DNA from: Paragemmobacter straminiformis
GTDB taxonomy: Bacteria; Pseudomonadota; Alphaproteobacteria; Rhodobacterales; Rhodobacteraceae
DNA: 64,000 nucleotides
NCBI RefSeq assembly: GCF_014243445.1
Contig: NZ_JACLQD010000004.1
Coordinates: forward strand, 372,001-436,000
Direction of reading: 5' to 3'
This document shows positions 4,836 through 41,973 of the stretch, in pieces. The position numbers were made by a program, and so were the translations under genes. The notes beneath the pieces are model-generated. The model searched no databases. It worked only from the letters and a program-made list of their open reading frames with translations, and was not told the origin of the DNA. Position 1 is the first letter of the stretch. Each line of letters begins with the position of its first letter.

Positions 4836-6151
4836 GCCCCCTTTATCAGCTTGCGGCGGAGCCAGCCCGACAGGCTGTCCATCGTCATCACCATGAGGAT
4901 GATGAGGGTGATGTAATAGGCGACTTCCTCCCAGTCCTTCTGGGTCTGGATCGCCTGCGTCAGGAGAAGGCCGATGCCACCGCCGACGATGGCACCGATC
5001 ACCGTGGCGCTGCGGGTGTTGGATTCGAGCGAATAGAGCGTTTGCGACAGAAGGACGGGGGTGATCTGCGGGATCACGCCGAAGCGGGCGCGCTGGAGGG
5101 CGTTGGCCCCTGTGCTGCGGATGCCTTCGAGCTGTTTTTCGTCAATGTTTTCGAGCGCTTCCGAGAAGGATTTACCAAAGGCGCCCGCGTCGGTGATCAA
5201 GATCGCAAGGGCGCCGGTCATCGGGCCGGGCCCGAAGGCACGCGACAGGATGATGGTCCAGATCAGCCCGTCGACGCCGCGCGTGAAGTCGAAGACGCGG
5301 CGCAGGGCGAAGCGGGCCGGGGCAAGCGGGTTCATGTTGCGGGCGGCGGCGAAGGCCAGAGGCAGGGCGATGATGGCCCCGCCGAAGGTGCCGAGGAAGG
5401 CCATCAGCACGGTTTCGAAGATCGCCCCGGCGACATCGGCGTGGTGCCACATGCCGTTCGTCCAGATGTCATGCGCCATGCCCGCGATGTTGCTGCGGGC
5501 CGGGTCGATGCGGTCGCCCCAGAGGGCGAGGGCGGCAAGCTCGCCCCAGCCTTTGCCCGCAAAGGGGCTGTCGAGGGTGAAGAAGAACAGCTCCCACCCC
5601 GCGAAGTAGCGGAAGGTTTCGACCTTGGACCGCGTGTAGGTGAAGCGGCCCGCGTCGGTGGTGACCGAGACGCGGTTGCCGCTGGCGTTGATCCAGTCGG
5701 GCAGCGGTTCGGGGGCGGTGAGTTTCAGCCCCGCGCCGTCGGGGCGGATGTCGATGGTGCCGTAACCGGGCACGGCGAAGCGCGCGCCCGTCGCGTCATA
5801 GGTGACGACATGGCCGGTGCCGAGGTCGATGGTCGTGGTCGCGCCCGTCTGGCTGACCCAATCGGGGAAGGTGCCTGCGGGGTAGGCGCCCTTGGCCTCG
5901 CCCTCGACCGCAGCAAAGACGCGGCCGGTGCGGTTGTCGCGGGTGACATGGGTCTTGTAGGACCAGAAATCACTGGCGAGGATGGCCGCGTTGTCAAGCC
6001 GCGCCTTGGCGAAAAGGCTTGGTATATCAAAGGCGAAGAAGGCGTAGCAAAGGTAGAGCATGACCAGCGCGGGCAGGGCTATGGCCTGTAGTTTGCGGCG
6101 GTGGAAACCGGCCAGCAGCGCGGGTGCGAGGGGATGGGTTGCGGCGGTCAT
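4832..6151 (-). CDS. phnE: PhnE, phosphonate ABC transporter permease (long form)
   Basis: Inner-membrane permease of the PhnCDE importer, 439 aa. A single N-terminal membrane segment (about residues 22-42) is followed by a large, strand-rich periplasmic region to about residue 210. The ordinary PhnE permease core comes after that, with the EAA-type loop SFSEALENIDEKQLEGIRST and the terminal QTQKDWEEVAYYITLIILMV. Short PhnE proteins lack the insertion. The start overlaps the stop of the second phnE as ATGA and the stop overlaps the acetyltransferase, so the genes are translationally linked. Confidence 0.93.
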   Translation of the reverse strand: MTAATHPLAPALLAGFHRRKLQAIALPALVMLYLCYAFFAFDIPSLFAKARLDNAAILASDFWSYKTHVTRDNRTGRVFAAVEGEAKGAYPAGTFPDWVSQTGATTTIDLGTGHVVTYDATGARFAVPGYGTIDIRPDGAGLKLTAPEPLPDWINASGNRVSVTTDAGRFTYTRSKVETFRYFAGWELFFFTLDSPFAGKGWGELAALALWGDRIDPARSNIAGMAHDIWTNGMWHHADVAGAIFETVLMAFLGTFGGAIIALPLAFAAARNMNPLAPARFALRRVFDFTRGVDGLIWTIILSRAFGPGPMTGALAILITDAGAFGKSFSEALENIDEKQLEGIRSTGANALQRARFGVIPQITPVLLSQTLYSLESNTRSATVIGAIVGGGIGLLLTQAIQTQKDWEEVAYYITLIILMVMTMDSLSGWLRRKLIKGA

Positions 6152-7032
6152 TGTGCGGCCCCTTTGACCAGACGGTGGCGCAGGCGGTCGGAAAGCTGGT
6201 CGATCAGCACGATGGTGGCGAAGAGGACGAGGAAGATGGCCACGACCGAGTCATAGCGCCCGCCGCCCCATTGCATCGCGATCTTGAGGTCATATCCGAT
6301 GCCGCCCGCCCCGACGAAACCGAGGATGGCCGAGGCGCGGACGTTGATCTCGAAGCGCAGCAGGGCGTAGGAGAACCAGTTGGGCGCGACCTGCGGGAGG
6401 ATGCCGAGCCACATGCGCTGGCCCCATGTCGCGCCGACCGAGGCAAGGCCTTCGACCGGTTTGAGGTCGGCGTTTTCGGCGACCTCGGAAAACAGCTTGC
6501 CCATCGCGCCGGTGGTGTGGATGGCGATGGCGACCATCGCGGGGATCGGCCCGCCGCCGAGGATGTAGATGAGGATGAGCGCGATCACCACTTCGGGGAT
6601 GGCGCGCATGGCGTCGAGCAGGCGGCGGATGACGGGGGTGAGGAGCGGCCAGCGGGCAAGGCCGCGGGTGGCCAGAAGCGAGAGCAGGCTTGCGGCCAGA
6701 ACGCCGATCAGCGTCGAGACGGCGGCGATGTTGACGGTTTCGATCAGCGAGGGCAGGGCAGCCCACATCAGCGCGGGCAGGTTGGCCCGCTTGGTCCATG
6801 CCTCGGCCAGCACCTCGCGCGGGAAGTCGTCAAGCTGGGCAAGACCCGACAGGAAGCCGCCCGCGTTGCGGGTTTCGGCGGCATGGAAGCCCGAGGCAAG
6901 CATGGCCAGAAAGACGACGAGGATCAGCCCGCCGTAAAGGCGCTTTCGCCGCGTCATGGCAAGATAGGCTGCCCCCGGGGCCTTAGGGTCTGGGCGTTTG
7001 CCGGGGGTTGGCCCGAAGGCGATGTCGACCAT
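6148..7032 (-). CDS. phnE: PhnE, phosphonate ABC transporter permease (second subunit)
   Basis: Permease partner (294 aa) with the usual length, a first membrane segment at about residues 32-50, and the cytoplasmic coupling loop LFSEVAENADLKPVEGLASV. The frame extends back to 7089, but that stretch would translate the stem-loop at 7054-7087, so the ATG at 7032 (MVDIAFGPTPG) is taken. It shares a heterodimeric transmembrane pore with the long PhnE downstream (inferred from pairing). Its distance from phnD is explained by the intervening attenuator. Confidence 0.92.
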   Translation of the reverse strand: MVDIAFGPTPGKRPDPKAPGAAYLAMTRRKRLYGGLILVVFLAMLASGFHAAETRNAGGFLSGLAQLDDFPREVLAEAWTKRANLPALMWAALPSLIETVNIAAVSTLIGVLAASLLSLLATRGLARWPLLTPVIRRLLDAMRAIPEVVIALILIYILGGGPIPAMVAIAIHTTGAMGKLFSEVAENADLKPVEGLASVGATWGQRMWLGILPQVAPNWFSYALLRFEINVRASAILGFVGAGGIGYDLKIAMQWGGGRYDSVVAIFLVLFATIVLIDQLSDRLRHRLVKGAAQ

Positions 7033-37556: not shown

Positions 37557-38264
37557 CTAGCTGCCGGTCAGGCGCAGGGGAACGAGGAGCTGGTAGCCGA
37601 AATTCCGCACCGAGACGATGCAGCGCCCGCCGAGACCGGCAGAGGCCAGTTTCTTGCGGATTCGCACCACCTTGAGTTCGATCGCCACCTTGGACAGGGT
37701 TTCGCCGTCGCGCAGGAAGCCGCGGATCTGGTCGAGACTGACGCGGCCTTCGGGCGCCGTGGCGCAATGGGTGAGGAATTCGGCCTCGTCCGCGCCGAGC
37801 GAGACGGTGCCGGACGGGCCGGACAGTTCAAGCCTGCGGCGGTTCAGGACGAGGTCGGCGTCGTCGGCCGCGCCCTGCTGGGCCGCGCCGAGCGGAAGGC
37901 GGCGCGAAAGGGCGTTCAGCGCGCCGAGGATCTCGTCGACCGAGCTTGGTTTGGTCAGGTAGATGTCGGCCCCGCTGTCATAGCCACGGCGGCGCTGGTC
38001 CATCTCGTCACGCGCGGTCAGCATGATGATTCCGCTTTGCGGGCGGTCGGCGCGGAGGCGGCGCGCGAAGCTCAGCCCGTCTTCGCCCGGAAGGTTGAGG
38101 TCGAGCAGGAAGATCAGCGGGGCGGGGCCGTCATGGGCCTCGAACCCTTCGACACTGGTGTGGCCCGAGGCGTCGAACCCCGCCGTGCGCAGGGCGTTCA
38201 CGAGCAGACCGTTGAGATCGGAGTTGTCTTCGATGATGGCGACAGAGGCGCGGGGCAGGTTCAT
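37557..38264 (-). CDS. OmpR-type response regulator
   Basis: Response regulator of 235 aa. The receiver has E12/D13, phosphoacceptor D55 in LLDLNLPGEDG and K105 in YLTKPSS. The C-terminal winged helix is recognisable but divergent (LGADEAEFLTHCATAPEGRV, then ELKVVRIRKKLASAGLGGRC and VRNFGYQLLV). It overlaps the H-box-bearing kinase gene upstream (ATGA), which itself overlaps the other kinase gene, so all three are translationally coupled. Confidence 0.85.
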   Translation of the reverse strand: MNLPRASVAIIEDNSDLNGLLVNALRTAGFDASGHTSVEGFEAHDGPAPLIFLLDLNLPGEDGLSFARRLRADRPQSGIIMLTARDEMDQRRRGYDSGADIYLTKPSSVDEILGALNALSRRLPLGAAQQGAADDADLVLNRRRLELSGPSGTVSLGADEAEFLTHCATAPEGRVSLDQIRGFLRDGETLSKVAIELKVVRIRKKLASAGLGGRCIVSVRNFGYQLLVPLRLTGS

Positions 38265-40105
38265 TCGGGTATTCCTGAGGGGGCGGCGACGAGAAGGAGG
38301 TCAAGGCGCAGCAGATCGGGTGCGGGGCAGGACAGGGTGAGCGTGCCGCCCATCTGGCGCAGCAGAAGCGTGCCGAGGGCGACTTGGGGCGGCAGGGCCG
38401 GATCGTCGGACAGCGGCGCCGCGAGGAGGGTTTCGCAGACCACCTTGCAGGGGGTTTCCTCCCCGCCTTGCGACAGGGTCAGGCGGATGGCGGCATCGGG
38501 GCGGGCAAGGGCGGACATGCCGTTCAGCGCCGCCGAAAGGGCGGCGGCCAGCATTTCGGGGTCGGCGATGACCATCGCGTCGGCGTCTTCGCCATCGAGC
38601 TGGATGCGGTCGGCGGCATCAAGACCGTCAAGCACGCCGTCGAGGATTTCGACAAGCACAAGCGGGCGGGGCTGGTTCGGCCCGTTTCCTTCGGTCAGCC
38701 ATGTGCTGTGGCGCGCCTCGGCAAGCGAGCGGTTCAGATCGCGGATCGTTGCGGCCAGCGCCTCGCGTTGCCGGGGATCGGTGATCTCGGGCAGGCTGAT
38801 CTGGAGGACGGTGAGGTTGTTGCGCAATTCATGCACGAGCATATGGGTGAAGCCATCCTGTTCGGCGGCGTTGCGGGCGCGGGCTTCCTGAACGGCGCGC
38901 GCCGAGGCGAGCGAGAGGCGCGTGGCGCGTTCGCGGCGCAGGTGGGCGGTGCGGTCGAAGGCCATGACGCAGAGCGCGATGAACAGGCTGTTCAGGCCGA
39001 ACACCTCGACATAGGGGCGCGATACGGCGGTGGGGCCGAAGAGGCCGAGGCGCGTGCAAAGCCAGACCGTGGTGACGCCGAACCATGTGCCATAGGCCAG
39101 ATGCAGCGTGCGGCGGGCCATCGCATCCCCGATGCGCAGCGTCAGCAGCAGCCCCATGACGAGGAACAGGGCCACGACCGAGAGCGCGACACCGGGCAGG
39201 CCGATCGCGCCATCGTCGCCCGCGAGCAGCGGCACGAGGAGCAGCGCCTGCGCGCAGATGACCGCATCGGTCGCGCGCAGGATGATCGGGTTCGGGCGGT
39301 GCTGGCCGAGGAAGTTGCGATGGAACAGCATCGAGGTGAGCGAGGTCAGCAGCGCCGCCGCATTGGTCAGGCGGCTGTGGGCCGTGGGATCGGCCAGCGG
39401 AAACAGGATTTGCGCGTAGCCCAGAGCCTCGGCCGAGTAGAGGAAATAGACGGCCATGAGCGCGAAGAGCGACAGGGACAGAAGGTTCGGCATGAGACGC
39501 AGGCGCAATCCGGCCAGCAGCACCCCCATGCCGAGAAGCGGAAAGTAGATCACATGCATCGCTATCCGGCGGGACAGGTTTCCTTGCGCCTCGGCAAGGC
39601 TGGTCGCCCAGATCTGGAAGCCCAGCGACGAGGTGCTTTGGACGCGCAGGAAGAGCGTGCGGCCAAGCGCGCTGTCGGGCAGGTGGAACCCGAGCGGCAG
39701 CAGTTTCGCCCCGCGTTTTGCGATGGGAACCGTGTCGCCGTTCTCGAGCGCGGTCCAGCCGCGCGAGGCGGGCAGGTAAAGCGTCACATGGTCGAGCTGG
39801 TTCAGCGAGAGTTGAAGGACGGTGTCGTCGGCATCCTTGCCCTTGGTCGCGGGCGGGGCGACGGTCAGCCGGAACCATTGCGCCGCGCGGTCGTAGCCGC
39901 CCAGAAAATCCGGCCCCGTCGGGGTGAAGCGGCGCTTGGCCACATCGGCGATGCCGAGCGTGGCCGAGCTGTCGCGGAAATAGCCGATCTGGCCGATGCG
40001 GTCGCTTGAGGGGGGGGCTGCCAGAAGGGCTTGCAGCATGGATCCGAGCAGCAGCGCGAACCAGAGGGCCAGAATGCCCAAGGCGATGTTGCGGGAGAGT
40101 TTCAT
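38261..40105 (-). CDS. 7TMR-DISM-type sensor kinase with H-box but degenerate ATP-binding domain
   Basis: A 614-aa membrane sensor. An N-terminal span (8-30) is followed by a periplasmic DISM-like beta domain (about 35-175), seven hydrophobic spans (about 182-385), and a HisKA-like helix with H425 in HMLVHELRNNLTVL. At the expected distance the catalytic domain retains a single Asn (N528 in AALNGM). The DxGxG box is not found, and the G2 box is reduced to PQVALGTLLLRQMGG. It therefore looks able to carry a phosphate but not to bind ATP normally. It overlaps the second kinase gene and the response regulator. Confidence 0.75.
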   Translation of the reverse strand: MKLSRNIALGILALWFALLLGSMLQALLAAPPSSDRIGQIGYFRDSSATLGIADVAKRRFTPTGPDFLGGYDRAAQWFRLTVAPPATKGKDADDTVLQLSLNQLDHVTLYLPASRGWTALENGDTVPIAKRGAKLLPLGFHLPDSALGRTLFLRVQSTSSLGFQIWATSLAEAQGNLSRRIAMHVIYFPLLGMGVLLAGLRLRLMPNLLSLSLFALMAVYFLYSAEALGYAQILFPLADPTAHSRLTNAAALLTSLTSMLFHRNFLGQHRPNPIILRATDAVICAQALLLVPLLAGDDGAIGLPGVALSVVALFLVMGLLLTLRIGDAMARRTLHLAYGTWFGVTTVWLCTRLGLFGPTAVSRPYVEVFGLNSLFIALCVMAFDRTAHLRRERATRLSLASARAVQEARARNAAEQDGFTHMLVHELRNNLTVLQISLPEITDPRQREALAATIRDLNRSLAEARHSTWLTEGNGPNQPRPLVLVEILDGVLDGLDAADRIQLDGEDADAMVIADPEMLAAALSAALNGMSALARPDAAIRLTLSQGGEETPCKVVCETLLAAPLSDDPALPPQVALGTLLLRQMGGTLTLSCPAPDLLRLDLLLVAAPSGIPE

Positions 40106-41973
40106 GGCTTTTCGGGCAGCCAGAGGATCAGCCGCACCGTCGCGCCATGCGGGGCGGGTGCCGTTTCGAGTGTGACCTGCCCCGACAGGGCTGTGACCAC
40201 CTCGCGCGTGATGAACAGCCCGAGGCCCGTGCCGCTTTGCCCCTGTGCCGAGGGGCCGCGGTAGAATTTCTCGAACACGGCCGCCGGGTCGAAGGGGGCT
40301 GCGGGGGCGGCGTTGCTGACCCAGAGCGCAAGGCCGGCGCGGCCCTGCCGTGTTTCGGGGACAAGGCGGATGCGGACGGGATGGCCGGGCAGGCCGTAGC
40401 GCAGGGCATTGGACAGAAGGTTCTCGACAGCCAGTTCGAACAGGTCGCGGTCGGTCGTCAGGCGGCGGCCTTCGGCGTCGGCGATGTCGAGGCGAAAGGC
40501 GTCGGGCGGGGCCAGCGTCCGGACAAGCGCCCGCAACGCGGGGGCGGGGGCGAAGCTGGCGGGGCGCAGGTTCCACGGGTTTCCCGTCGCCTCGTGCGCG
40601 AAGATGCAGCGGTCGACGACACGGCCCAGCGTGGTGACGGCGCGCTGGGCGCGGGCCGGTGCCGCGCCGAAGCCACCCGAGGCGAGGCAATCAAGCGTGA
40701 TCGCGGAGACGCGGGCGACCTGTGTGTCGATGCGGCGCAAGAGGGCCAGACGTGCGGCGACGAACTGGCGGTCGACCGCGAGATCGACGGAAAGGGATTG
40801 CAGGGCGAGTTCGCGGGCGAGAGTCCTTTCCTGCGCGCTGCGGTTTTGCAGCCAGAGCAGGGTCAGCATGAGGGTGGAGGTGACGACGGTGATCGCCTCG
40901 ATGCTGTGGCGATACAGGACTTCGGCGTCGATCAGGCCGAAGCGGGCGGTGATGTTGAACAGAAGGAAGGCGATGTAGACGGCATAGACGTATCGCACCT
41001 GCCTGCGGGTGATCGGCCCATCCTGACGCAGGCTGACAAGCAGGGCGACGAGCAAGGGGACAAGCAGGACATAGGTGACAAGCGAGATCCTGAGCGCGAT
41101 ATCCCCGTTGCCGAGCAGGCGCGCAAGCGGGCCGAGCGCCGAGAAGGCGAGCAGCCCGAGGCTGGCGCGGCCGAGGGCCAGCGAGGGCCGGAAGTCGCGC
41201 AGGAACAGGTGGTGGAATGCGGCCAGCGAGGTGACGGTGAAGCAGGCCAGATATTCCTGCGCCGCCTCGGCCCGTATCGGGGTCAGGCCGAAAAGCACCT
41301 TGCCGTAGCCGTTGATCATGTAAAGGTAGGCGCTGAAGCTGGTGATCATCACGAGAAAGCCGAAGTTCGGCACCGAGCGCAAAGGGCTGAGCGTGCCGAT
41401 CAGCACCGCCCCCGCAAGGCAGAGCAGCGCGTGGTTGATGACCAGCCATCCGGCGGTGGTGACGTCTTCGGACAGGGCGAGGTTGGCCGAAACGGCGGTG
41501 ACGACGATCGCACCCGGAGAGCGGGTCGAGATGCGGACATACCACGGCCCGCGCTCGGCCTGCGGGTGGATGGAAAAGGCATACCAGTTGATCGAGGGCA
41601 CGGCGTCATTGTCGGGCGACAGGCGTTCGCCGTTCTTGCTGATCCGCCAGCGGCCATCGGGCAAGGGGGTGAAAAGTTCGATCTCGTCGGTCGTGCTGGG
41701 GCGGAAGCGCAGCAGCAGGGGGCCGGGGGCGGGGTTTTCGATGCTGACGCGCAGCCAGTAGACCGACGAGGTGAATCCGCCACCGAAGGTCGAGGCGATG
41801 GGCGTGAAACGGGCGGATTGCACATCGGTCAGGGACATGGCGCGGGTGGGATCGACCAGAACCGCGTAGGAGATGCGCTGTTCGGCCCGAAGGGGGGCGG
41901 CGAACAGGAAAAGGCCAAACACCGCAAGGCAGGCACAGGCAAGCCGCCGCAGCAGCGGGGCAGGCCGGAGCAT
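40102..41973 (-). CDS. 7TMR-DISM-type sensor with kinase ATPase domain but no H-box
   Basis: A 623-aa protein with signal-like N-terminus (8-30), a DISM-like periplasmic domain (about 35-170), seven membrane spans (about 175-376) and a good HATPase domain: N-box ENLLSNALRYG (517-527), FEKFYRG and G2 box GTGLGL (581-586). In the helix where the phosphoaccepting His should lie (SVDLAVDRQFVAARLALLRR) there is none; the nearest HE pair (H460) is only 57 residues before the N-box, too close. The start is uncertain: ATG 41973 is used; GTG 42003 and TTG 42036 are in frame. It overlaps the partner kinase gene by ATGA. Confidence 0.75.
   Translation of the reverse strand: MLRPAPLLRRLACACLAVFGLFLFAAPLRAEQRISYAVLVDPTRAMSLTDVQSARFTPIASTFGGGFTSSVYWLRVSIENPAPGPLLLRFRPSTTDEIELFTPLPDGRWRISKNGERLSPDNDAVPSINWYAFSIHPQAERGPWYVRISTRSPGAIVVTAVSANLALSEDVTTAGWLVINHALLCLAGAVLIGTLSPLRSVPNFGFLVMITSFSAYLYMINGYGKVLFGLTPIRAEAAQEYLACFTVTSLAAFHHLFLRDFRPSLALGRASLGLLAFSALGPLARLLGNGDIALRISLVTYVLLVPLLVALLVSLRQDGPITRRQVRYVYAVYIAFLLFNITARFGLIDAEVLYRHSIEAITVVTSTLMLTLLWLQNRSAQERTLARELALQSLSVDLAVDRQFVAARLALLRRIDTQVARVSAITLDCLASGGFGAAPARAQRAVTTLGRVVDRCIFAHEATGNPWNLRPASFAPAPALRALVRTLAPPDAFRLDIADAEGRRLTTDRDLFELAVENLLSNALRYGLPGHPVRIRLVPETRQGRAGLALWVSNAAPAAPFDPAAVFEKFYRGPSAQGQSGTGLGLFITREVVTALSGQVTLETAPAPHGATVRLILWLPEKP

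Follow-up and report, generated by a model that had tools for sequence, protein, structure and literature searches.

Split and heterodimeric kinases are already known, as in CheA3/CheA4 and FasB/FasC. In Mycobacterium tuberculosis, the three-protein system Rv0600c/Rv0601c/Rv0602c places the ATPase part and the His part on two neighboring genes beside a response regulator, a single kinase distributed over two genes, unlike the duplicated sensor proteins, here called A and B, that are the subject of this study. RetS, a partner in another heterodimer, has a 7TMR-DISM sensor. The FasBCA system of group A Streptococcus shows that a heterodimer of the kind considered here for A and B can work, a FasB/FasC heterodimer having been observed by two-hybrid analysis, and like the present locus it consists of two sensor-kinase genes and a response regulator (PMC12675982). 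FasC is proposed there to be a pseudokinase and the phospho-acceptor (H246), while FasB supplies the kinase domain; the DHp His of FasB, H284, is still considered possible (PMC12675982), whereas the H-box His is absent from B in all four species that have it. A and B further differ from FasBC in that they belong to the 7TMR-DISMED2 family, that their losses are two-sided and fixed across species, and that intact single genes occur in the same genus.

In CheA3/CheA4 of Rhodobacter sphaeroides, acceptor and catalytic site also lie on separate proteins, neither of which autophosphorylates alone (PMC3591291). These proteins, however, have CheA architecture, sit in the cytoplasmic chemotaxis cluster and lack whole domains; they are not a pair of whole membrane sensors from one family. 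In Synechocystis, Hik36-Hik43 likewise shares a kinase function between two genes, and their products contact a single response regulator, but it is a split CheA homologue with genes at distant positions (PMC7656254). GacS/RetS resembles the present case as a heterodimer of two sensor kinases and differs in that RetS inhibits GacS and each is also homodimeric; complementary loss is not described in the available parts of the two sources (PMC12675982, PMC12189002). ChpT, similar to A, combines a DHp domain carrying the His with a CA-like domain missing the ATP lid, but it has no membrane sensor and relays phosphate, being unable to use ATP itself (PMC3433190). We found no complementary 7TMR-DISM pair in the open-access literature within the terms searched, and PMC4053972, considered as a 'bipartite histidine kinase' precedent, was set aside because it concerns a different subject.

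The B-A-response regulator locus and its distribution

We analyzed a 64,000-nucleotide stretch of Paragemmobacter straminiformis DNA (the window; contig NZ_JACLQD010000004.1, positions 372,001 to 436,000), in which B, A and a response regulator (RR) gene form a trio on the minus strand, transcribed in that order, with each gene overlapping the next end to start. A preliminary description had reported two 7TMR-DISM sensor genes that overlap each other and the RR gene; both frames are indeed open at the coordinates given there, on the minus strand, with a 7TMR-DISMED2 domain in each, and both overlaps are present. The B-A-RR operon was found in four of the 19 genomes of the window's genus (G000, which contains the window, G013, G007 and G011), and the counts in the following list refer to these four.

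40102-41973, minus strand: protein B, first gene; sensor (DISMED2), membrane part, His-less DHp and CA (ATPase) domain (open reading frame; Pfam 7TMR-DISMED2 and HATPase_c)
41515-41865, minus strand: 7TMR-DISMED2 sensor domain of B (Pfam, 60.7 bits)
40684-40761, minus strand: DHp helix 1 of B, without His (alignment column)
40723-40725, minus strand: codon of T419 of B (P0002), at the His position (alignment column)
40117-40452, minus strand: HATPase_c domain of B (Pfam PF02518, 54.5 bits)
40396-40422, minus strand: N-box of B, NLLSNALRY; both Asn, Ala and Tyr in 4/4 B
40216-40233, minus strand: G2 box of B, GTGLGL; in 4/4 B and 0/4 A
40102-40105, minus strand: ATGA stop/start overlap of B and A; ATGA at this junction in 4/4 pairs
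38261-40105, minus strand: protein A; sensor (DISMED2), membrane part, H425-bearing DHp and degenerate CA (Pfam: 7TMR-DISMED2 and a weak HisKA, HATPase_c absent)
39611-39991, minus strand: 7TMR-DISMED2 sensor domain of A (Pfam, 62.5 bits)
38792-38869, minus strand: DHp helix 1 of A, residues 413-438 (conservation; helical in the model)
38831-38833, minus strand: H425 codon of A, H-box HELRN (alignment column)
38264-38686, minus strand: degenerate CA of A, in which the N-box, G1, lid/F-box and G2 are lost (alignment; an alpha/beta sandwich without lid in the model)
38261-38264, minus strand: ATGA stop/start overlap of A and RR; ATGA in G000 and G011, short gap in G013 and G007
37557-38264, minus strand: RR, OmpR-type; D55, T83 and K105 present (Pfam Response_reg, weak Trans_reg_C)

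In G007 and G011 the B/A overlap would be longer if start codons lying further upstream were used. The RR residues D55, T83 and K105 are invariant in 10/10 aligned RR orthologues; we take D55 to be the phospho-accepting Asp, and T83 and K105 to be the switch Thr and Lys.

Proteins with 7TMR-DISMED2 occur in 10 of the 19 genus genomes. A survey of co-conservation, as the preliminary description had proposed, found A and B adjacent in the four genomes and neither of them without its partner among all 19 (completeness 83 to 100%). The orthologues in the three further species are only 35-54% identical to the window proteins, and all eight pair genes are full-length and open across the four diverged species. 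In six other species (G005, G009, G010, G015, G016 and G012) the genus has instead just one gene with this architecture, adjoining an RR orthologue; it is intact in five and broken into two frames in G012. The G012 single lies at L063:5091-6952 on the minus strand, with open reading frames at 5858-6952 and 5091-5861; a frameshift, an assembly error or a further split would each account for this. G007, a pair species, also has a distant intact single on contig C2 (L064:8237-10195; HELRN, GSGLGL), with an RR-like open reading frame (4941-5543) about 2.7 kb downstream.

The known pairs number four and come from one genus, and two of the four records are metagenome-assembled genomes (MAGs): identical 3-kb stretches link G013 to JAIXZW010000001.1 (Rhodobacteraceae MAG) and G011 to JAIXRW010000005.1 (Rhodobacter sp. 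MAG). A single-sequence search of genome contigs with A found no relative, and an alignment-based search found two of the four pairs together with nine betaproteobacterial contigs carrying intact singles, all nine with a relative of the RR directly behind. When the best three candidates per genome were scored, A-like genes were detected in 1/394 genomes of a family sample, namely the window's own; this sample is spread over 393 genera and so contains just one other member of the window's genus. In a class sample scored in the same way, 4/385 genomes gave matches: the window's own and three weak partial ones, which cover sensor or membrane stretches. At one of these (L065, G132), A had no tblastn match at 1e-4, and B's ATPase and the RR matched weakly.

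The genes that flank the trio are common to G000 and G013, and different ones are common to G007 and G011; the B-A-RR unit thus stayed together in two gene neighborhoods. By eye, the neighbors in the window and in L055 were named LysR-like and sorbosone-dehydrogenase-like, and L056 and L057 have other genes.

Opposite motif losses in A and B

Pfam searches returned 7TMR-DISMED2 in A and B at the scores listed above (cut-off 22), and all eight pair proteins exceeded the cut-off. The 7TMR-DISM_7TM model reached 18.2 bits in A, under its cut-off of 29; among three intact singles scanned, G016 passed (34.0), and G010 (26.9) and the betaproteobacterial L071 (24.0) fell below. Comparison with the HisKA and HATPase_c models, also suggested in the preliminary description, bore out the opposite states of the two proteins: A has a weak, below-cut-off HisKA match (18.5 bits) and no HATPase_c match, and B has HATPase_c and no match to HisKA or 7TM at E<=1. 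Across the four species, HATPase_c was found in 4/4 B and 0/4 A. HisKA at E<=0.1 was absent from the listing for the three other A proteins and for two intact singles, and this model is a poor detector for the family of A, B and the singles. Neither A nor B matched HPt (P1) or CheW-like (P5) domains at E<=1, which sets them apart from CheA.

In the host genome we counted 43 HATPase_c and 33 HisKA stretches (HisKA E<=0.01). In 32 of the 33, HATPase_c follows just behind HisKA in the same open frame, and the sole exception is A (coordinates compared by eye). Eleven of the 43 HATPase_c stretches, including that of B, have no in-frame HisKA; many ATPases of the HATPase_c fold are not HisKA kinases. 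The unusual member in the host genome is thus A, the His-only protein. Such proteins are not rare across databases, since SMART contained 1556 HisKA proteins without HATPase among 42417 (PMC3591291); what is unusual in A and B is that the complementary partner is matched, comes from the same protein family and has been retained in four species.

Motif states were read per MAFFT alignment column in four A, four B and 15 intact singles. The broken G012 single was excluded from these counts and from the tree, and the G007:C2 single is among the 15 but outside the S group used for domain identities. The H-box His is present in 4/4 A, where H425 of HELRNN was correctly noted at the outset, and in 15/15 singles, and it is replaced in every B (T, A, R and T). 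The Glu that follows it and the Asn at +4 (HE.RN) occur in 4/4 A and 0/4 B. At the ATP site the pattern is reversed: the second N-box Asn and the G2 box GxGLGL are each found in 15/15 singles, 4/4 B and 0/4 A, and the first N-box Asn in 14/15 singles, 4/4 B and 1/4 A (G007). The F-box is present in 4/4 B, with a gap at this position in 4/4 A. In DHp helix 2, an Arg is kept in 4/4 B and 15/15 singles and the Cys that follows it in 4/4 B and 13/15 singles; both are lost in 4/4 A.

B had been described as keeping the N-box and GTGLGL without an H-box His, which holds in all four species. For A, loss of the DxGxG and G2 boxes had been claimed; the G2 loss stands, but DxGxG is no distinguishing mark, as the family has Asn in place of its Asp in 15/15 singles and 4/4 B. 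This G1 Asn is itself lost in 4/4 A. As side observations, the residue at H-box +4 is Thr in eight of the nine betaproteobacterial singles (L068-L076), Asn in the ninth, and Asn in 5/5 genus singles (L058-L062); a non-canonical His lies close to the end of DHp helix 2 in 3/4 B (H462 in P0002) and is absent in G007.

Thus, the family includes singles that carry both halves, and A and B keep opposite halves of the catalytic core, with the same losses in 4/4 species, more than chance would give. Neither is a canonical HisKA kinase with His and ATP site in one polypeptide, A lacking the ATP boxes and B the His throughout; acceptor His and ATPase lie on separate genes of one system, a split kinase in the sense of CheA3/CheA4. 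Duplicated genes commonly decay, and the pair might be a redundant duplicate in the course of being lost, its complementarity accidental. That all eight genes are open and full-length in four diverged species, with the same motif losses and the same B/A junction, makes this barely credible, and we rejected plain decay on the shared losses and junction.

What speaks most against B having a fully normal ATP site is the missing G1 Gly, which is retained in 15/15 intact singles and lost in 4/4 B (P, T, P and A); B's ATP site may be altered because of this loss. The missing Gly would also fit A and B being regulatory pseudokinases, with another kinase phosphorylating the RR, A draining it as a phosphatase and B modulating A. 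In line with this, HE.RN of A fits the phosphatase motif HE/DxxN/T as given in PMC3591291. Yet B has kept its N-box, G1 Asn, F-box and G2 over 36-53% identity, which is hard to explain without nucleotide use, and the five intact genus singles beside an RR orthologue suggest an ancestral role as the RR's own kinase. We consider the pseudokinase explanation improbable.

Conservation among the four orthologues of each protein is reciprocal, with helix 1 kept in A and relaxed in B, and the ATPase domain better kept in B. Mean pairwise identity was 64.7% in A and 31.4% in B for helix 1, and 32.7% and 47.3%, respectively, for the CA domain. The corresponding values were 46.3% and 45.1% for helix 2, 34.9% and 43.3% for the sensor, and 42.6% and 36.6% for the membrane part. 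Invariant columns numbered 12/26 in A and 4/26 in B for helix 1, a modest difference (Fisher p 0.034), and 16/133 and 45/153 for CA (p 0.0005); when labels were shuffled over the 168 helix-1/CA columns, the observed contrast was reached in 2/20000 cases, all of these statistics being descriptive because alignment columns are not independent.

Origin of the pair

A tree of 23 proteins was built from the sensor and membrane columns, with the His and ATP columns excluded. The A group and the B group were each supported at 100/99, and A and B jointly at 99/97 against the singles and betaproteobacterial genes. In the RR tree, the regulators of the pairs formed one group (100/100) against six RRs of singles. 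Given this sister relation, A and B likely arose when a gene was duplicated and the copies underwent reciprocal loss, and the tree groups place the duplication most likely before the divergence of the four pair species. The root of this tree is not fixed and the stems of A and B are long, so attraction between the two stems is possible.

Two halves of a putative sensor kinase

The division first suggested for this locus, with A as phosphoacceptor and B as kinase, gains support from the opposite losses in 4/4 species, the co-occurrence of the two genes and their reciprocal conservation, beside intact singles in the genus. We consider it probable, on the strength of these comparisons, that A and B each contribute one half of a single heterodimeric membrane sensor kinase, in which the His of A is phosphorylated in trans by B and the phosphate then goes from A to the RR. 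As the opposite losses recur in related species, A and B probably work only as a pair in switching on the RR.

In such a system, coupled translation would allow A and B to be made in step, and they would pair via sensor, membrane part and DHp helices like the ancestral homodimer. The CA domain of B would bind ATP and phosphorylate H425 of A; since the dimer would have one acceptor, in A, and one ATP site, in B, this reaction would be in trans. The phosphate would then move from H425 to D55 of the adjoining RR, which A, through HE.RN, may also dephosphorylate. Neither homodimer could pass phosphate, so output would need both proteins, each with its own diverged sensor, and the kinase may follow a two-signal logic.

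The cytoplasmic parts of A and B were also predicted as separate single chains. The model of A (mean pLDDT 85.3) is a helical hairpin with an alpha/beta sandwich from which the lid segment is missing, and it is closest to kinases such as bacteriophytochrome, RetS and HK853. The model of B (mean pLDDT 79.5) has its nearest matches among histidine kinases, including HK853, CusS and WalK/YycG, and its CA domain also matches CpxA; confidence is mostly about 90 in CA, 67-75 in the lid and about 60 in DHp, the least certain region. Both models lean towards a kinase fold because the underlying alignments are led by intact relatives.

The lidless model of A resembles ChpT as described in PMC3433190, and the kinase could be split without a stable heterodimer: A would be a homodimeric membrane phosphotransferase (ChpT/Spo0B-like) and B a homodimeric ATPase, in transient contact as in CheA4-CheA3. 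In that system the interaction is dynamic, with the kinase domain of CheA4 binding P1 of CheA3 transiently (PMC3591291). However, both A and B retain the whole sensor, membrane part and DHp hairpin, and nothing obvious bars heterodimers. Furthermore, membership of A in the ChpT/HPTransfase family was rejected, as A has no PF10090 match at E<=1 and the single match in the host genome lies elsewhere, on contig C13. Transient contact between two homodimers thus seems rather unlikely.

Within the heterodimer reading, we lean towards its stricter form, an obligate heterodimer that arose by duplication and reciprocal loss, with one His, one ATP site, phosphorylation in trans only and a requirement for both diverged extracellular sensors. 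If this is correct, the obligate A-B heterodimer can serve as a coincidence detector with two inputs. Its output could also become switch-like, a property that modelling of the CheA3/CheA4 system suggests split bifunctional kinases can gain. Engineered complementing mutants exist for EnvZ; with A and B, forced trans-phosphorylation, one-site dimers and two-input sensing become testable on natural proteins. Altogether, one genus offers the likely before (singles with all motifs) and after (pairs with reciprocal losses in four species) of the transition from a one-gene to a two-gene receptor kinase.
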